Position numbers and translations under genes: made by a program | From: a virus | Direction: 5' to 3' (one strand) | DNA length: 31,588 nt | Virus record (IMG/VR): IMGVR_UViG_3300022074_000219 | Coordinates: 1-31,588 of that record | The notes under the pieces: generated by a model | What the model saw: the letters and a program-made list of their open reading frames with translations, nothing else | Told to the model about the DNA's origin: nothing | The model's database searches: none | In this document: piece by piece, positions 5,350 through 18,543 of the stretch | Layout of the letters: every line of letters starts with the position of its first letter | How positions within the stretch are numbered: position 1 is the stretch's first letter

Positions 5350-5714
5350 TGAATCTCTCTGCTAAAGAACAATATATTCAAAGAGCTACTAACGTAAAAT
5401 ATTCTTTTTCGGCTACTACACAGCAAACTATTTACACAGCACCAACAGGCGATGATTTTACTTTTGCTATAGTTGAAGGCATATTTGCTTGCGATCACGG
5501 AAATCAACAAACAAACTTAGATATATCAATAACCGATACAAGTTCTGTTGAGTTTTTCTTATTTAAGCAAAAAAACATAAGCGCACATGAAACAATAGAA
5601 TTAGTTGTTAATTCTGGTTTAATTTTAAAACAAGGCGAAATCATCAAAGCGCAAGTTAATCACGCAAATATAGATTTAGTTTTTAGTGTTATAGAATATG
5701 CAAAAGGTGACTAA
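5349..5714 (+). CDS. Hypothetical beta-rich virion protein, 121 aa
   Basis: The ATG overlaps the TAA of the gp10-like gene by one base, and GAGG lies about 9 bases upstream. The sequence alternates polar and hydrophobic residues across its length (YSFSATTQQTIYTAP, then TNLDISITDTSSVEFFLFKQ). This is typical of a small jelly-roll or Ig-like domain, and there are no membrane or signal segments. In many marine podovirus-like genomes a protein of this size follows the gp10 homologue and is annotated as hypothetical or decoration-like. A virion role is likely from operon position; no specific function can be claimed. Confidence 0.75.
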   Translation: MNLSAKEQYIQRATNVKYSFSATTQQTIYTAPTGDDFTFAIVEGIFACDHGNQQTNLDISITDTSSVEFFLFKQKNISAHETIELVVNSGLILKQGEIIKAQVNHANIDLVFSVIEYAKGD

Positions 5715-10119: not shown

Positions 10120-10986
10120 ATGCACGAAAGTATCAACGATTTACACAATCTTTATCAACAGGATTGCGCTAGACGTAAAACAAAGACAATTAAAGAACTA
10201 AACAGGATCTACCACAAATACATTGCAGGTTCATTGGGCCAGAAAAAACTTAATGAGGTTGTTAGAGGTGACATAGCCAAACTGCATTTTAGTTTATCAG
10301 AGACAGCGCCTGCACAAGCCAATAAAGTATTAACGTTGCTCAGATCTATGTTTAATCTGGCTATCACTCTTAGCTTGGTTGAAAGCAATCCTGCGACACA
10401 CATTGCCAAGAACAAAGAAAACAAAAGAAAGCTATACCTAACAAGCGAACAACTTATTCAAGTTAAAGAACAACTCGACTTGTTATACAAAAACAAACGC
10501 TATCAAGAATCTGTAGATTTCATCTGGCTACTGCTCCTAACAGGAGCTAGATGCGGTGAGATTGCGAAAGCTAAGTGGACGGACTTACAAGGCAATATGC
10601 TTGTCTTGAGCGAGCATAAAACGGATCAGTACGGCGAGGAAAGAGTCATACATTTGAGTGAACGCGCCCTGGATATAATAAATCGCAGGGCGCAGGAGGG
10701 CGAGAGAATATTTAACATTCAAGCGCCTCGGAGAGCGTGGGATAAAATTAGAAAAACACTTGGTATAGAAGAGTTTAGATTGCATGACTTACGCCACACT
10801 TTCGCGTCGTTTTCTTTACAAAAATTACCGTTAGCGCAAGTTGGTCATTTGCTCGGACATAAAGATCAAAAGACAACTGCGCGGTATGCACATATACATA
10901 AGGACAAGGCTATTGAGTCTGCTGCGCTAGTGAGCGAGCATATAGAAGCTCTGTTACAACCTACAGATTTTCGAAATCAAATATGA
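10120..10986 (+). CDS. int: Tyrosine integrase (site-specific recombinase), 288 aa
   Basis: The C-terminal catalytic domain of the phage integrase family is complete. It has Arg144 (TGARCGEI), Lys167 (SEHKTD), His222 and Arg225 (LHDLRHTFAS), His247 (LLGHKD) and the nucleophile Tyr256 (TTARYAH). The N-terminal 100 residues form the SAM-like core-binding domain (KLNEVVRGDIAKLHFSLSE). There is no clear long arm-binding domain. The protein is a little shorter than typical (about 300-400). It integrates and excises phage DNA, which suggests a temperate life cycle. Its 3' end overlaps the convergent leftward gene by 26 bases. A predicted promoter and a GGAG ribosome site support the start at 10120. 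The attachment site was not identified. Confidence 0.95.
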   Translation: MHESINDLHNLYQQDCARRKTKTIKELNRIYHKYIAGSLGQKKLNEVVRGDIAKLHFSLSETAPAQANKVLTLLRSMFNLAITLSLVESNPATHIAKNKENKRKLYLTSEQLIQVKEQLDLLYKNKRYQESVDFIWLLLLTGARCGEIAKAKWTDLQGNMLVLSEHKTDQYGEERVIHLSERALDIINRRAQEGERIFNIQAPRRAWDKIRKTLGIEEFRLHDLRHTFASFSLQKLPLAQVGHLLGHKDQKTTARYAHIHKDKAIESAALVSEHIEALLQPTDFRNQI

Positions 10987-13900: not shown

Positions 13901-14273
13901 TCTCGACTATTTTATAAAATACAACAGACAGTCTCTTTGCGGTTATTGCAAAGCGCCTGCAAAGGGATTGCTTGTTGAAAAAGAAAAAGATATTTACTAC
14001 GCGGCATGTAGTAGAAAACACGCAGAAAAGATAATGAATGGAGAGAAATTAAACAGAAAAGCATACGCAAGCCGAGACGGTGTGCGCTATGCGACAAAAC
14101 AAAGCAAGGACAAATATATAGAGATCGCCAAGAAAAGCGGTACTTACGTTATGCATGAGTGGGACAGCAACGATAGAGAACAATTTTTTAATGAAGTAGT
14201 CTTAAACTATCTTGATTGGGCCAATGAGCAGGCAGAGAACGGCAACATAAGAGAGATAGTTATAGATGGTTAG
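13881..14273 (+). CDS. Putative zinc-finger protein (DUF6511-like), 130 aa
   Basis: The start overlaps the SSB-like gene by 20 bases and the end overlaps the primase start by 8. Cys20-Gly-Tyr-Cys23 with Cys43 and His47 (YYAACSRKHAEK) form a CxxC...CxxxH zinc site. The remainder is a basic linker (RKAYASRDGVRYATKQSKDKY, partly) and a C-terminal helix (QFFNEVVLNYLDWANEQ). Similar small proteins next to phage primases are annotated DUF6511; I rely on overall pattern here. DNA binding is likely from the charge and zinc site. Confidence 0.68.
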   Translation: MTKSLFSLDYFIKYNRQSLCGYCKAPAKGLLVEKEKDIYYAACSRKHAEKIMNGEKLNRKAYASRDGVRYATKQSKDKYIEIAKKSGTYVMHEWDSNDREQFFNEVVLNYLDWANEQAENGNIREIVIDG

Positions 14274-16116
14274 CGTAACTAAACATTACGGAGAAGATGG
14301 TTTAGTCTTAGATAAGAGTCTAGCGTTTGCAAGTTCAGGCAAAGATATCAGCGACTTACTGCGCGAGATGGAAAGCAATGCAGGGTTGCGCGTTAGCAAC
14401 TTAGTCACAACAGGCGAGATAGTTAGAGTTTCCGTTGGCGCGGTTGCGAACCAACGTCCAGACAAAGGACAAGAAAAATCAGGTTGGTATTCAGTCAATT
14501 ACTACGGCGACGCAATCTTCGCGTCTTACGGTAATTGGCGACAAGGCATAGAGTTTAAGTTCAGCTCTATCAATCCAAACGAGATGTCGGCGCGAGAGCG
14601 TGAAGATTTAAAACGGCGTATGGAAGAATCCATAGAGCGGAGCAAACAGCAACGCGCTGAAAGGTATGATGAAGTTAGCCAGGATTGTAAAAAAAGATTT
14701 GAGTCTGCAATAGAAGTTATAGATCATCCGTATTTAGATAAAAAGCAAATTAAAAGTTATGGGTTAAAAGCAATCAGAGATAGTCTCGTTGTGCCTGTGC
14801 ATTGTATAGAAAAAGGCCTGAGAAGTTTGCAATATATTAATAACGAAAAACGCTTTGTGAGCGCAAGCGAAGTCAAAGGCAATATTTATCATCTGGGTTT
14901 TGATTTATCCGATATTGCTAATCAGAAAAAAATTATTGTCTGTGAAGGCGCAGCTACCGCGCATAGCATTTTTGAGGCAACTAACCTTCCAACTATCTGT
15001 GTATTCTCGGCGTCGTTTGGCGAGGCGGCGTTACTCAAGTTGCGTAAGCATACTCAAGCAAAGTTTGTCTTAGCGTTTGACAACGACGAACACGGTTTGG
15101 GCGCGAGTAAAGCGGAGGCGGTAGCGCAAGCGGTGGCGAGTGTGGAAATAAGAATACCGAGCGAGCGCGGCGACTATAACGACATGCACGTTGCTCATGG
15201 TTTAGCAAAAGTCAAAGAAGAGATAATTAAAAGTAAGTTCAACTTTGCAAGTTTCGCTATTAGTAACTATGTGGGTGAGCCGCCAGAGCGAGATTGGTTA
15301 GTAGAAAATTTTATTGAAAACAAAGCAGGCGTATTTTCTTCGATTGGTGGCGTGGGTAAATCCATGCTTGCTTTGGATTTAGCTCTCAAAGTAAGAGATG
15401 GTTTTGGCGACTTCATGGGTAAACCTATCAAAAAGTCAGGATCAGTGGCAGTATTTGCAGCCGAGGACGATAAACTGGAAATTCACCGTCGTTTGAAGGC
15501 GCTAAATGCCTTAGACGCTACAGGAGCTACAAAAGCGTCGTCTAACGAAGTTTATGTAATTACCATACCAAACCTTAAACAACCTATAAATTTGCTCGTG
15601 GAGGACAGTTCTGGGCTTCGAATTTCTAATGAAGGTTACGAATTGTTGGAACAATTAGAGAGTATCAATAATTTAGCATTATGTATCTTTGATCCGATAT
15701 CTTCGTTTGTTTCTGGTGTGCCAATTACGACTAGTCAAGAAGCGGCACAAATGTACGGACAATATTGTTCTATGTTGAGCAGTAAATTTAACTCAAGCGT
15801 GATTTCGATCCACCATATGACAAAAAGCGCATTGCAAGGTATTGATGATCCGCTTATCGCTAGACAGAGCGTCAAAGGATCTGTCGCAATTTTGGACTCG
15901 GCAAGGTTTGGATTGGCGGCCTGGTTAGCAAGCGAGAGCGAGGCAGAGCGCATTTGTTTAGAGCAAGGCGTAGAATTTGACCGCATGCGCGTGATTAAAG
16001 CGGCGATAGTAAAAACTAACTCAGGCGAAGTCGATACAAAAATTAAGACTTTGTTTCGAAAAAATGCTTTACTTGAAATCATAGAAGAAAACAATGGAGC
16101 TATAAATTGGGATTAA
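14266..16116 (+). CDS. TOPRIM primase fused to RecA-like (RepA/AAA_25) helicase, 616 aa
   Basis: Residues 60-95 hold the GWYSVNYYGD...GNWRQG motif common at the head of phage primases. A TOPRIM domain follows with VCEGAAT (Glu227) and FDND (Asp272, Asp274). From 350, a RecA-like ATPase has Walker A SSIGGVGKSM (Lys365), a FAAEDD acidic motif and Walker B LCIFDP (Asp476), then SIHHMTKS. The two-domain build matches phage/plasmid primase-helicases related to RepA. The phage has no visible DNA polymerase, so this protein would prime and unwind while the host polymerase extends. It is the core of the replication operon. No extra start evidence beyond the ATG. Confidence 0.88.
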   Translation: MVSVTKHYGEDGLVLDKSLAFASSGKDISDLLREMESNAGLRVSNLVTTGEIVRVSVGAVANQRPDKGQEKSGWYSVNYYGDAIFASYGNWRQGIEFKFSSINPNEMSAREREDLKRRMEESIERSKQQRAERYDEVSQDCKKRFESAIEVIDHPYLDKKQIKSYGLKAIRDSLVVPVHCIEKGLRSLQYINNEKRFVSASEVKGNIYHLGFDLSDIANQKKIIVCEGAATAHSIFEATNLPTICVFSASFGEAALLKLRKHTQAKFVLAFDNDEHGLGASKAEAVAQAVASVEIRIPSERGDYNDMHVAHGLAKVKEEIIKSKFNFASFAISNYVGEPPERDWLVENFIENKAGVFSSIGGVGKSMLALDLALKVRDGFGDFMGKPIKKSGSVAVFAAEDDKLEIHRRLKALNALDATGATKASSNEVYVITIPNLKQPINLLVEDSSGLRISNEGYELLEQLESINNLALCIFDPISSFVSGVPITTSQEAAQMYGQYCSMLSSKFNSSVISIHHMTKSALQGIDDPLIARQSVKGSVAILDSARFGLAAWLASESEAERICLEQGVEFDRMRVIKAAIVKTNSGEVDTKIKTLFRKNALLEIIEENNGAINWD

Positions 16117-17432
16117 AAGTATTAAGTTTATTTGATGGTATGAGTTGCGGTCAGATAGCGCTTAATCGACTTGGTATTAAAGTTGATAAGTATTACGCCA
16201 GCGAGATTGATAAGTATGCAATCGAAGTCACACAAAAAAACTTTCCTGACACAATCCAAGTTGGCGATGTGTGCGAGCTAAAAGCAGAAGATTATCAAGA
16301 CATAGATTTAATTATGGCAGGCTCGCCTTGTCAGGGTTTTTCTTTTGCAGGTAAACAGTTGGCCTTTGAAGATCCAAGGTCTGCATTGTTCTTTGAATTT
16401 GTTCGATTGTTAAAAGCAATCAAACCAAAGTATTTTTTACTTGAGAACGTCAGAATGAAGAAAGAATATTTAGCAGTCATCACCGAGCAAGTGTCGGCTT
16501 GTTATCCTGATTATCAAGGTAATGATTTATTTGGTGGTCGTATTGAGCCTATATTTATTAATAGCGCCTTAGTGAGCGCTCAATCTAGGCAAAGATACTA
16601 TTGGACCAACATACCTGGCATTGAGCAACCAGAGGACAAAGGTATAGTCTTGCGAGATATTTTGGAAGATGAATATTTAAGTGAAAAAGATAAATCATAT
16701 TGCATAGACGCTAATTATTATAAAGGCGCAAGCGTTGAGCAATATAAAAACAAATCACGAAGGCAGTTAGTAAGCAAACCAAAACAAGTTGGCACGGCTG
16801 TTGACGTAAGCGGACATGACATACTTAAAAGAGTTTATTCACCAGACGGTAAATCACCTACGCTTAACACCATGGGTGGTGGCAATCGAGAACCTAAAGT
16901 TGTAAGCGGTGCAGCTTTTCGTGGCAGAGCTTACGATAAAGACGGTAAACGTATGGACAAAAACGGCGTTTCTGTAGCTAACCAAACAAAGCAAATGTTA
17001 GAACTGCGTAAAGACGATAAATCCAATGCGATTACTACAGTATTTAAAGATAGTGTGGTTGTTTCAAACGATACAGAAGAGCGCATTATAGTTGATGAAG
17101 AAAATAGACAATTAATTATCGCCGAGGCTACTAAAAAAGGTTATACGGTTATTGAAGATGGCGATTGCTTTGACATTAATTATCCAAAGTCAAAGACAAG
17201 GCGCGGCAGAAACATGAAATACAAATGCAATGCTTTAACGCCAACGGCACAAGATTATATGCGTTTTGAAAACTTAACTTGGCGCAAGCTCACGCCGTTA
17301 GAGTGTGAACGTTTACAGACTGTGCCTGATAATTACACGGAGGGCGTATCAAATACGCAAAGATATAAGATGTTAGGCAACGGCTGGACGGTGGACGTTA
17401 TCGCGCACATACTCGCCAATATGGAGCTATGA
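16107..17432 (+). CDS. C5-cytosine DNA methyltransferase, 441 aa
   Basis: The motif set is complete: I LSLFDGMSCG (residues 6-15), IV GSPCQGFSF with catalytic Cys75, VI ENVR (113-116), VIII QSRQRYYW (159-166) and X GNGWTVDVIAHIL near the end. The variable part between VIII and IX (about 170-390) is the target-recognition region. The start is a TTG at 16107, since no ATG exists before motif I; GGAG lies about 8 bases upstream. It overlaps the primase by 10 bases. Orphan phage C5 methyltransferases are known to protect the genome from host restriction. The recognised sequence cannot be read off. No restriction enzyme is beside it. Confidence 0.93.
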   Translation: MGLKVLSLFDGMSCGQIALNRLGIKVDKYYASEIDKYAIEVTQKNFPDTIQVGDVCELKAEDYQDIDLIMAGSPCQGFSFAGKQLAFEDPRSALFFEFVRLLKAIKPKYFLLENVRMKKEYLAVITEQVSACYPDYQGNDLFGGRIEPIFINSALVSAQSRQRYYWTNIPGIEQPEDKGIVLRDILEDEYLSEKDKSYCIDANYYKGASVEQYKNKSRRQLVSKPKQVGTAVDVSGHDILKRVYSPDGKSPTLNTMGGGNREPKVVSGAAFRGRAYDKDGKRMDKNGVSVANQTKQMLELRKDDKSNAITTVFKDSVVVSNDTEERIIVDEENRQLIIAEATKKGYTVIEDGDCFDINYPKSKTRRGRNMKYKCNALTPTAQDYMRFENLTWRKLTPLECERLQTVPDNYTEGVSNTQRYKMLGNGWTVDVIAHILANMEL

Positions 17433-17433
17433 A

Positions 17434-17676
17434 TTGAAACTTAAAGACAACATAAACCCAAAGCATTATAAGCGTGGCGCGATTGAGTGCATTGACGCTA
17501 TCCAGGCAAGTTTAAGCGAAGAACAATTTAAAGGTTATCTAAAGGCGAGCGCGATAAAATATTTATGGCGTTATGAGCAAAAGAACGGACTCGAAGATTT
17601 GCAGAAAGCAGATTGGTTTTTACAACGATTAATTAAGGAGGAGCAATGTCCAAAGGATCTAACCCAAGACCAATGA
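17434..17676 (+). CDS. DUF3310 protein, 80 aa, TTG start
   Basis: The frame starts at TTG 17434, one base after the methyltransferase stop, with GGAG close upstream. The family pattern is clear: NPKHYKRGAIECIDAI, then EQFKGYLKASAIKYLWRYEQKN and GLEDLQKADWFLQRL. DUF3310 proteins are small and helical. They are common in phage replication regions, sometimes called nucleotide-kinase-like, but their activity is unknown. Here the gene lies beside primase and methyltransferase, matching that context. The next small gene starts inside its 3' end. Confidence 0.8.
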   Translation: MKLKDNINPKHYKRGAIECIDAIQASLSEEQFKGYLKASAIKYLWRYEQKNGLEDLQKADWFLQRLIKEEQCPKDLTQDQ

Positions 17677-17789
17677 ACAGAGATAAATTTAACGAAAACT
17701 TTGATAGAATTTTCGGCAAAAAGAAGGTGGATAAAACTAAGAGTGATGGCAGTAAAAGCAACAACGATGGTTGCAAAATGCAACAATAG
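17646..17789 (+). CDS. Small basic conserved phage protein (MSKGSNPRP type), 47 aa
   Basis: AAGGAGG lies directly before the ATG and marks a strong start. The protein begins MSKGSNPRPMNRDKFNENF, with NFDRIFGKKK after it. This N-terminus recurs in many tailed phages just after DUF3310 genes. Its last 16 residues (Asn, Ser, Lys, Gln-rich) are encoded by the start of the 22-bp repeat array and show no protein-like constraint, as if non-coding signals shape them. It overlaps the DUF3310 gene by 31 bases. Function unknown. Confidence 0.7.
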   Translation: MSKGSNPRPMNRDKFNENFDRIFGKKKVDKTKSDGSKSNNDGCKMQQ

Positions 17790-17843
17790 TTGGCTAAGTA
17801 TGCAACATACGTTGGCAGTAAATGCAACACATATCCATATACA
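17734..17843. repeat. Five-unit iteron-like array, 22-bp period (candidate replication origin)
   Basis: The octamer ATGCAACA starts at 17778, 17800 and 17822, with AAGCAACA at 17756, so four copies lie exactly 22 bases apart. The second half of the unit (consensus GTTGGCAGTAA) recurs at 17745 as GATGGCAGTAA, at 17789 as GTTGGCTAAGT and at 17811 exactly, close to the same period. The R2 half is displaced by one base. An inverted pair GTTGCA-aaa-TGCAAC spans 17770-17784. AT-rich DNA with CATAACATA repeats follows to about 17858. Two helical turns per unit, an AT-rich flank and a downstream HTH gene are the marks of iteron origins. An operator array is the alternative. Confidence 0.6.
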
Positions 17844-17858
17844 TAACATAACATACTT

Positions 17859-17883
17859 TTGGCCTACGCTTGCGCTAGGCCAA
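17859..17883. other. Strong hairpin upstream of a ribosome site
   Basis: TTGGCCTA (17859-17866) and TAGGCCAA (17876-17883) are perfect inverted copies. The inner CGC and GCG can extend the stem around a TT loop with one bulge. It is followed by GAAAGGAG and the ATG at 17897, not by a T-run, so it is not an intrinsic terminator. It may stabilise the message, act as an origin-associated structure or tune translation. Confidence 0.5.
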
Positions 17884-17896
17884 GAAAGGAGAAAAC

Positions 17897-18088
17897 ATGA
17901 AGAAAAGTTTACGAATATTTTTAACTAGATTCTTGTGGGACGACGAGGATTATACAGGGCCTAATATTTATGCGAAGAGTGAGCGCGAGGCGCAAGCGAT
18001 AGCAGAATATTACGGTTGTGATGTCGTCGGTGAATTAACAGATGTAGTGAGCGAGGAGAGCGAGTGCGTGAGCAAGAAGATACATTAA
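17897..18088 (+). CDS. Hypothetical protein, 63 aa
   Basis: AAGGAG lies 7 bases before the ATG. The protein starts with a basic, partly hydrophobic helix (KKSLRIFLTRFLW) and continues with an acidic region (YAKSEREAQAIAEYYGCDVVGELTD), then VVSEESECV. The fold looks like a small alpha/beta unit similar to those seen in short phage proteins with repeated 'Y.K..RE.EA' helices. It overlaps the next gene by 25 bases, so the two are probably translated together. Function unknown. Confidence 0.65.
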   Translation: MKKSLRIFLTRFLWDDEDYTGPNIYAKSEREAQAIAEYYGCDVVGELTDVVSEESECVSKKIH

Positions 18089-18543
18089 AGTATTGGTGGA
18101 TTACTGAGGAGAACGTAGAGAGCGAGAGCGGTTTGATTGAGCAAGCCGTTTGGTATCAATATAAAGATTTCAAAAAGTTAAAGCGTGTAGCGTGGAAGTG
18201 GTTCAGAGCGCGAGCTGGGCGTAAGGATCTCACGCCTGCGAGCAAGTTAGTTCTGTGGGCGCTAGTAGAGAGGCATAGATATAACTGTATGGGTGTGCGC
18301 GATTCGTTGAGCTATATTTCTAAGATGACAGGATTGAACCGACATACTGTGTCGCGGTGTGTGCATGAGCTTGCGAGTGAGGAAAAGAATATCATCTGGA
18401 TAGCGGCAGAGAGCGAGAAACTTCTCATGCGAAAGATTAAGAAAGGGTATAAAACTTATATATTGTTTGTGGGATTGAATAGGGCGCTTAAAGATAGTGA
18501 GCGCGGTCTAGGAGAAAACACATTTTTGGAGAGTGATGATTAA
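18064..18543 (+). CDS. HTH (HTH_36-like) protein, putative replication initiator, 159 aa
   Basis: The GTG at 18064 is the furthest upstream start; it overlaps the previous gene. The core (residues 57-105) reads LTPASKLVLWALVERHRY, SYISKMTGLNRHTVSRCVHE, a helix-turn-helix of the HTH_36 type typical of phage O-like or plasmid replication initiators. A basic patch (KKLKRVAWKWFRARAGRKD) precedes the HTH and would suit DNA binding. It is the last rightward early gene and lies close to the iteron-like array. The link between them is inference, but the location is what a Rep/iteron pair would have. A general transcription factor remains possible. Confidence 0.7.
   Translation: MREQEDTLKYWWITEENVESESGLIEQAVWYQYKDFKKLKRVAWKWFRARAGRKDLTPASKLVLWALVERHRYNCMGVRDSLSYISKMTGLNRHTVSRCVHELASEEKNIIWIAAESEKLLMRKIKKGYKTYILFVGLNRALKDSERGLGENTFLESDD

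Follow-up and report, generated by a model that had tools for sequence, protein, structure and literature searches.

The window, i.e., the whole 31,588-nt stretch of viral DNA that was analysed, harbors a replication region in which all the genes considered below as part of the module lie on the + strand. Its upstream part is formed by a primase-helicase gene (14266–16116), the product of which combines, according to profile and PDB sequence matches, a TOPRIM domain with a helicase domain resembling RepA of RSF1010; the sole PDB sequence match of its C-terminal domain was RSF1010 RepA (1g8y, E 3e-12, residues 335–587). Exonuclease, Sak4-like, and single-strand-binding families are matched by other genes of this region, whereas the window translations read or searched included no recognisable DNA polymerase. 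A cytosine methyltransferase-like gene (16107–17432) is situated directly before the module and is missing or replaced by other genes in several relatives; a DUF3310 gene (17434–17676) adjoins the module in several relatives. The reading frame of a 47-aa gene (17646–17789) follows, and its last codons enter a repeat array, in line with the overlap reported in the first-pass annotation; in the related loci L004 and L006–L008, this gene stops before the array. The gene at 18064–18543, with a GTG start, encodes a 159-aa protein with a helix-turn-helix (HTH) domain. The array was initially placed about 220 bases before this gene: it is indeed located upstream, but in the window a 63-aa gene (17897–18088), recognised by its reading frame and in relatives, intervenes. 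The 63-aa gene occupies this position in L025/L029 and in the group to which the window belongs, and many relatives lack it there, so that the array is directly upstream of the HTH gene.

Direct reading of the sequence reveals a 22-bp repeat, represented by AAGCAACA at 17756 and ATGCAACA at 17778, 17800, and 17822, the spacing being exactly 22 bases as originally described. The inverted pair GTTGCA-AAA-TGCAAC (17770–17784) and the AT-rich DNA 3' of the array, where CATAACATAACATA is found, were likewise borne out. The second half-unit (TGGCAGTAA-like), claimed to recur three times, is discernible at 17747 and 17813 and degenerate between these positions. Accordingly delimited, the four iterons of the + strand are TGGCAGTAAAAGCAACA (17747–17763), GGTTGCAAAATGCAACA (17769–17785, holding the perfect dyad), TGGCTAAGTATGCAACA (17791–17807), and TGGCAGTAAATGCAACA (17813–17829). 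When the units of the window and those of L002 were combined into a weight matrix, these four sites scored 20–25 bits, and no other site in the window exceeded 13.5 bits. Tandem Repeats Finder gave its top score in the window (67) to 17747–17829, with a period of 22 and 3.8 copies. The self-periodicity scan with shuffled controls suggested in the first-pass annotation yielded a mixed picture: the lag-22 maximum of the whole window (41 of 74 positions) was at the array and was reached in 1 of 200 dinucleotide shuffles, but the top place in the any-period scan was 27261, with a period of 18. Overall, the window taken alone provides moderate evidence for the periodicity; it is the relatives that make it convincing and confirm the 22-bp array as real.

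Over 100 marine viral contigs encode homologs of the 18064 protein; none were detected in 50,697 phage records (two queries), and a search of 84,980 bacterial and archaeal species, each represented by one genome, yielded neither a homolog nor a host. The arrays were compared in 70 non-redundant loci from the marine viral contigs with enough sequence upstream of the HTH homolog. The periodicity, the loss of which in relatives had been named earlier as a refutation, was retained: each of the 70 loci had its best period at 21 or 22, and in 67 of them the upstream region surpassed all control stretches of the same contig for periods of 18–26 bp. Four units, counting back from a conserved ATATCC motif, were found in 54 of 59 loci. 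The mean self-match of 32 distinct arrays was 0.49 at lag 22, 0.43 at lag 44, and 0.41 at lag 66 (background 0.26). The sequences of the units are highly varied, e.g., ATGCAACA in the window, TGTACATAGA in L005, ACGTCCTTAGA in L025, GGCGATTCTAG in L037, GGGACATATTGTCCC in L039, TAGTAAGTTTTACTA in L040, and TGTAGCAAAGCGCTACA in L098. Thus, candidate binding sites repeated at a regular, helically phased spacing, as in iteron-type origins, recur across the 70 loci. Strong iteron matches were confined to the array in the relatives searched whole, save single weaker sites in two records. An isolated iteron-like site, TAGAGTAGCGCTACAA, with one mismatch, occurs off the array at G002:C1:1391–1406 and G004:C1:10142–10157.

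The usual layout in the relatives comprises four units 21–22 bp apart, followed by ATATCC (directly 3' of the last unit in most relatives), an AT-rich inverted repeat, a hairpin, and the HTH gene. The corresponding AT-rich segment of the window (17831–17856) begins with ATATCC (17831–17836) and continues with CATAACATAACATA; the motif and the hairpin, designated P2 (TTTTGGCCTACGCTTGCGCTAGGCCAAGA; 17857–17885, + strand), are present here, and the AT-rich inverted repeat is absent. The L003–L008 and L025 groups lack ATATCC, possess TATA-rich repeats instead, and retain the hairpin. Hence, judged by sequence only, 17831–17856 and its equivalents in relatives represent a candidate AT-rich unwinding region adjoining the repeats. 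Of 44 distinct sequences, 41 contain the AT-rich inverted repeat with arms of at least 6 (25 kinds of arm; 2.4% in shuffles), and 39 contain the hairpin (22 kinds of inner arm; 3.2% in shuffles). As inferred from the alignment of relatives, the place and the pairing of the hairpin are kept and its sequence is not: in an alignment of 31 sequences, 13 of the 14 pairs showed compensatory changes, 90% of the cells were paired, the 3' arm carried a one-base bulge, and for most measures none of 500 shuffles scored equally high. In L056, L057, L062, and L063, nearly the same iterons are followed by differing, still paired AT-rich inverted repeats, i.e., their sequence seems to turn over fast with the pairing kept. 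The Rfam search returned no match. An ordinary terminator was considered for the hairpin and rejected: the stem in the window has no T-run after it, and no + strand terminator was found in 17600–18100. The hairpin is terminator-like in some relatives (the L003 group). Within the columns that pair, G-U and A-C cells, a possible discriminator of RNA and DNA folding, were about equally numerous, and no strand preference was evident.

The 18064 protein, a presumed initiator, is predicted by modelling and profile matches to be a winged-helix DNA-binding protein. AlphaFold2 supplied with 13 diverse sequences returned a model with a mean pLDDT of 71.8 that contains a winged-helix domain (block means of 88–93 at residues 41–70 and 81–110); an earlier model from eight close sequences was of low confidence. 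The predicted recognition helix (RHTVSRCVHELA) spans residues 93–104, encoded by 18340–18375 of the + strand, and was located by structure prediction and by the correlation with the array described below. Pfam models HTH_36 and MarR_2 scored under their cut-offs (MarR_2, 16.9 bits vs. a cut-off of 27), and the likeness to MarR-type regulators is one of fold only. Replication-initiation PHROGs ranked first, albeit weakly, for five of the five homologs tested (best E 2.7e-5), these matches spanning the DNA-binding part alone. The Foldseek search against PDB put MarR-type transcription regulators first (best E 4e-3), so the fold alone cannot separate an initiator from a regulator.

The array and the HTH gene change jointly. 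L001 and L002 carry the array as in the window, and their HTH proteins are 97–100% identical; L003–L008 possess a different array and HTH proteins of 57–60% identity, being otherwise near-identical (primase-helicase 89–96%, TerL 98–100%). The methyltransferase is 99% identical in L005 despite its different array, and the 63-aa gene shows 86% identity in L002 and also 86% in L003, though the L003 array differs. At the DNA level, the identity of L051 and L046 is 93–98% just upstream of the array, falls to 33–46% within it, and regains 98% at 5460 (L051 coordinates), beyond the HTH gene; the recognition helices differ as well (SRKTISRG in L051 vs. NRKTAGRA in L046). In both sets, L051 vs. L046 and L001/L002 vs. 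L003–L008, the array and the HTH gene are exchanged together between otherwise near-identical phages, as if the identity of the origin were under diversifying selection.

In a set of 32 proteins of less than 95% identity, 6-mer similarity of the arrays was compared with identity of the recognition helices. The two were correlated (Spearman 0.69; partial 0.42 given the remaining protein; 0 of 2000 permutations), part of this correlation being due to shared ancestry; the remaining protein, given the helix, added almost nothing (0.09). Scanning with a 15-residue window, the correlation peaked at residues 85–105, i.e., the recognition helix, and equally at residues 55–69, the first helix of the DNA-binding domain, and was below zero at the C-terminus. 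The early guess that the 18064 protein binds the array thus gains support from two sides, the joint change in near-identical genomes and the recognition-helix correlation, which argue strongly that this protein reads the array. A nearby cognate initiator with a specificity matched to the iterons, another hallmark of iteron-type origins, is therefore suggested by comparison.

Collectively, the phased sites, the AT-rich segment, the matched protein, the adjacent replication genes, and the confinement to a single cluster are best accommodated by an iteron origin. We estimate at roughly 75% the probability that the array supplies the iterons of a phage replication origin bound by the 18064 protein and shaped like lambda ori or IncQ oriV. 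An iteron-controlled origin had been suggested in the first-pass annotation, and such a function agrees with the AT-rich and hairpin elements, the weak initiator matches, and the linked primase-helicase (15 of 15 relatives tested carry it upstream of their array, at 43–52% identity). Against it stand the shortness of the 18064 protein and the skew analyses: both GC skew and fourfold-site skew were flat or tracked gene direction, giving no origin signal. The proposed chain of events runs from binding through dimer use, melting, and helicase loading to a replication start at the array. The winged-helix protein would occupy the four 22-bp iterons, which all face the same side of the DNA helix; each unit is partly dyad-symmetric and would probably take up a dimer. 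The complex would then melt the adjoining AT-rich segment (17831–17856). Subsequently, the primase-helicase 14266 would be loaded and would prime synthesis, perhaps via the hairpin 17857–17885, and, as the window revealed no DNA polymerase, that of the host would presumably carry out the extension. Replacement in sister phages affects the array together with the DNA-reading part of the protein, so that lock and key stay matched in each phage.

The same arrangement could in principle serve transcription: as an autoregulatory operator array, the four sites would be occupied by 18064 as a regulator repressing or activating its own operon, with the hairpin at the transcript start and replication initiated elsewhere or without 18064. 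In all relatives examined, the array precedes the gene or operon of the protein itself, which conforms to this, as do the preference of the fold search for MarR-type regulators and the -10-like hexamers (TATACT, TATAAT) that several relatives have before the hairpin; operators, too, are expected to change jointly with their protein. Still, the promoter scan revealed no sigma-70 promoter on the + strand between the array and the gene (the promoter count was at the shuffle level), the usually four phased units together with two structures exceed the needs of an operator, and the top PHROG matches are replication-initiator families in phages whose primase-helicase is consistently linked. We consider this reading, the main rival of the origin, unlikely. 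In iteron replicons, operator and origin roles can coexist, and the two readings are not exclusive.

A related scenario, in which a temperate phage would use 18064 as an immunity-type repressor acting on several operators, draws on the tyrosine-type integrase gene of the window (10120–10986, read from its translation) and on the swapping of specificity typical of immunity regions. It is rendered very improbable by the strong sites being in one cluster only, by a divergent promoter layout not being evident, and by profile searches in which no repressor or cleavage domain was found. A reading of the repeat as fortuitous, or as coding sequence where the 47-aa gene ends, is compatible with the moderate window-only signal (1 of 200 shuffles reaching the lag-22 score), but its probability is practically nil: it is refuted by the conservation of the period in relatives with an entirely different sequence, in several of which the 47-aa gene stops before the array.

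Returning to the origin reading, the array belongs to a widespread module of marine phages that probably marks the replication start site, its repeat sequence changing with the neighboring DNA-binding protein, the most likely reader of the repeats. A large group of uncultured marine phages thereby obtains a predicted initiator–origin pairing, and the many natural protein–site specificities within one small family constitute a data set for the recognition code of winged-helix initiators. The paired structures, the base pairs of which persist as their sequence changes, indicate that the origin contains a functional fold. That near-identical phages exchange the module suggests that the identity of their origin is under selection, e.g., by origin-targeting parasites or incompatibility, as was proposed for PLE satellites (PMC8263062).

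No description of this phage module was found in the literature searched; three known systems share parts of it, and it conforms in full to none of them. Lambda ori possesses four 19-bp iterons (PMC3985674), and the likeness to it includes four iterons, a dimeric initiator, and a higher-order complex, the latter two being putative in the phage (PMC3985674). At the same time, the lambda iterons are inside the O gene, whereas those of the phage are upstream of the HTH gene, and lambda P delivers the host DnaB, whereas the phage encodes a RepA-like helicase. The 18064 protein matches the O-like PHROG phrog_678 weakly (E 0.002) and, at E up to 0.1, does not match Pfam Phage_rep_O, the lambda O family.

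IncQ plasmids combine iterons, an AT-rich region, and palindromes with the RepA helicase (PMC7557826), and in RSF1010 RepB' primes at hairpin sites (PMC4538821). The phage module resembles the oriV of IncQ/RSF1010 (served by RepA, RepB, and RepC) in its iterons, AT-rich region, and palindromes and in the use of its own primase and a separate (here presumed) initiator; RepA is homologous to the C-terminal part of 14266, which is predicted from the 1g8y match to be a RepA-type hexameric helicase. The pairing of the phage hairpin is conserved, its role in priming being putative. The differences include the primase, a TOPRIM domain rather than the AEP fold of RepB', and the initiator, for which no RepC match was found. 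A tentative and rather doubtful extension of the analogy is an IncQ-like origin of a tailed phage, in which a short winged-helix initiator on four iterons would open the AT segment, and extruded inverted repeats, with rapid sequence turnover and preserved pairing, would become single-strand start sites for the fused TOPRIM primase and RepA-type helicase in strand-displacement-like replication.

The PLE satellites of Vibrio cholerae, the replicon of which comprises a RepA_N initiator and iterons (PMC8263062, PMC7145576), exchange the iterons together with the DNA-binding domain (PMC8263062). In both cases, a mobile-element initiator binds (in the phage, putatively) semi-palindromic iterons through its DNA-binding domain, and the iterons and this domain vary together and swap as a module. 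PLE have three repeats of ~30 bp, whereas the phages usually have four units of 21–22 bp; PLE RepA bears a conserved C-terminal domain with a presumed role in replisome recruitment, whereas the phage protein is short, with no evident helicase-loading or other extra domain. For RepA_N, the 18064 protein gave no Pfam match, the fold list containing only the DnaD N-terminal domain (E 0.33). The phage module also differs in its two conserved paired structures and linked phage primase-helicase. Since the exchange of iterons together with a DNA-binding domain is already known in PLE satellites, the phage module represents a variant on that theme.
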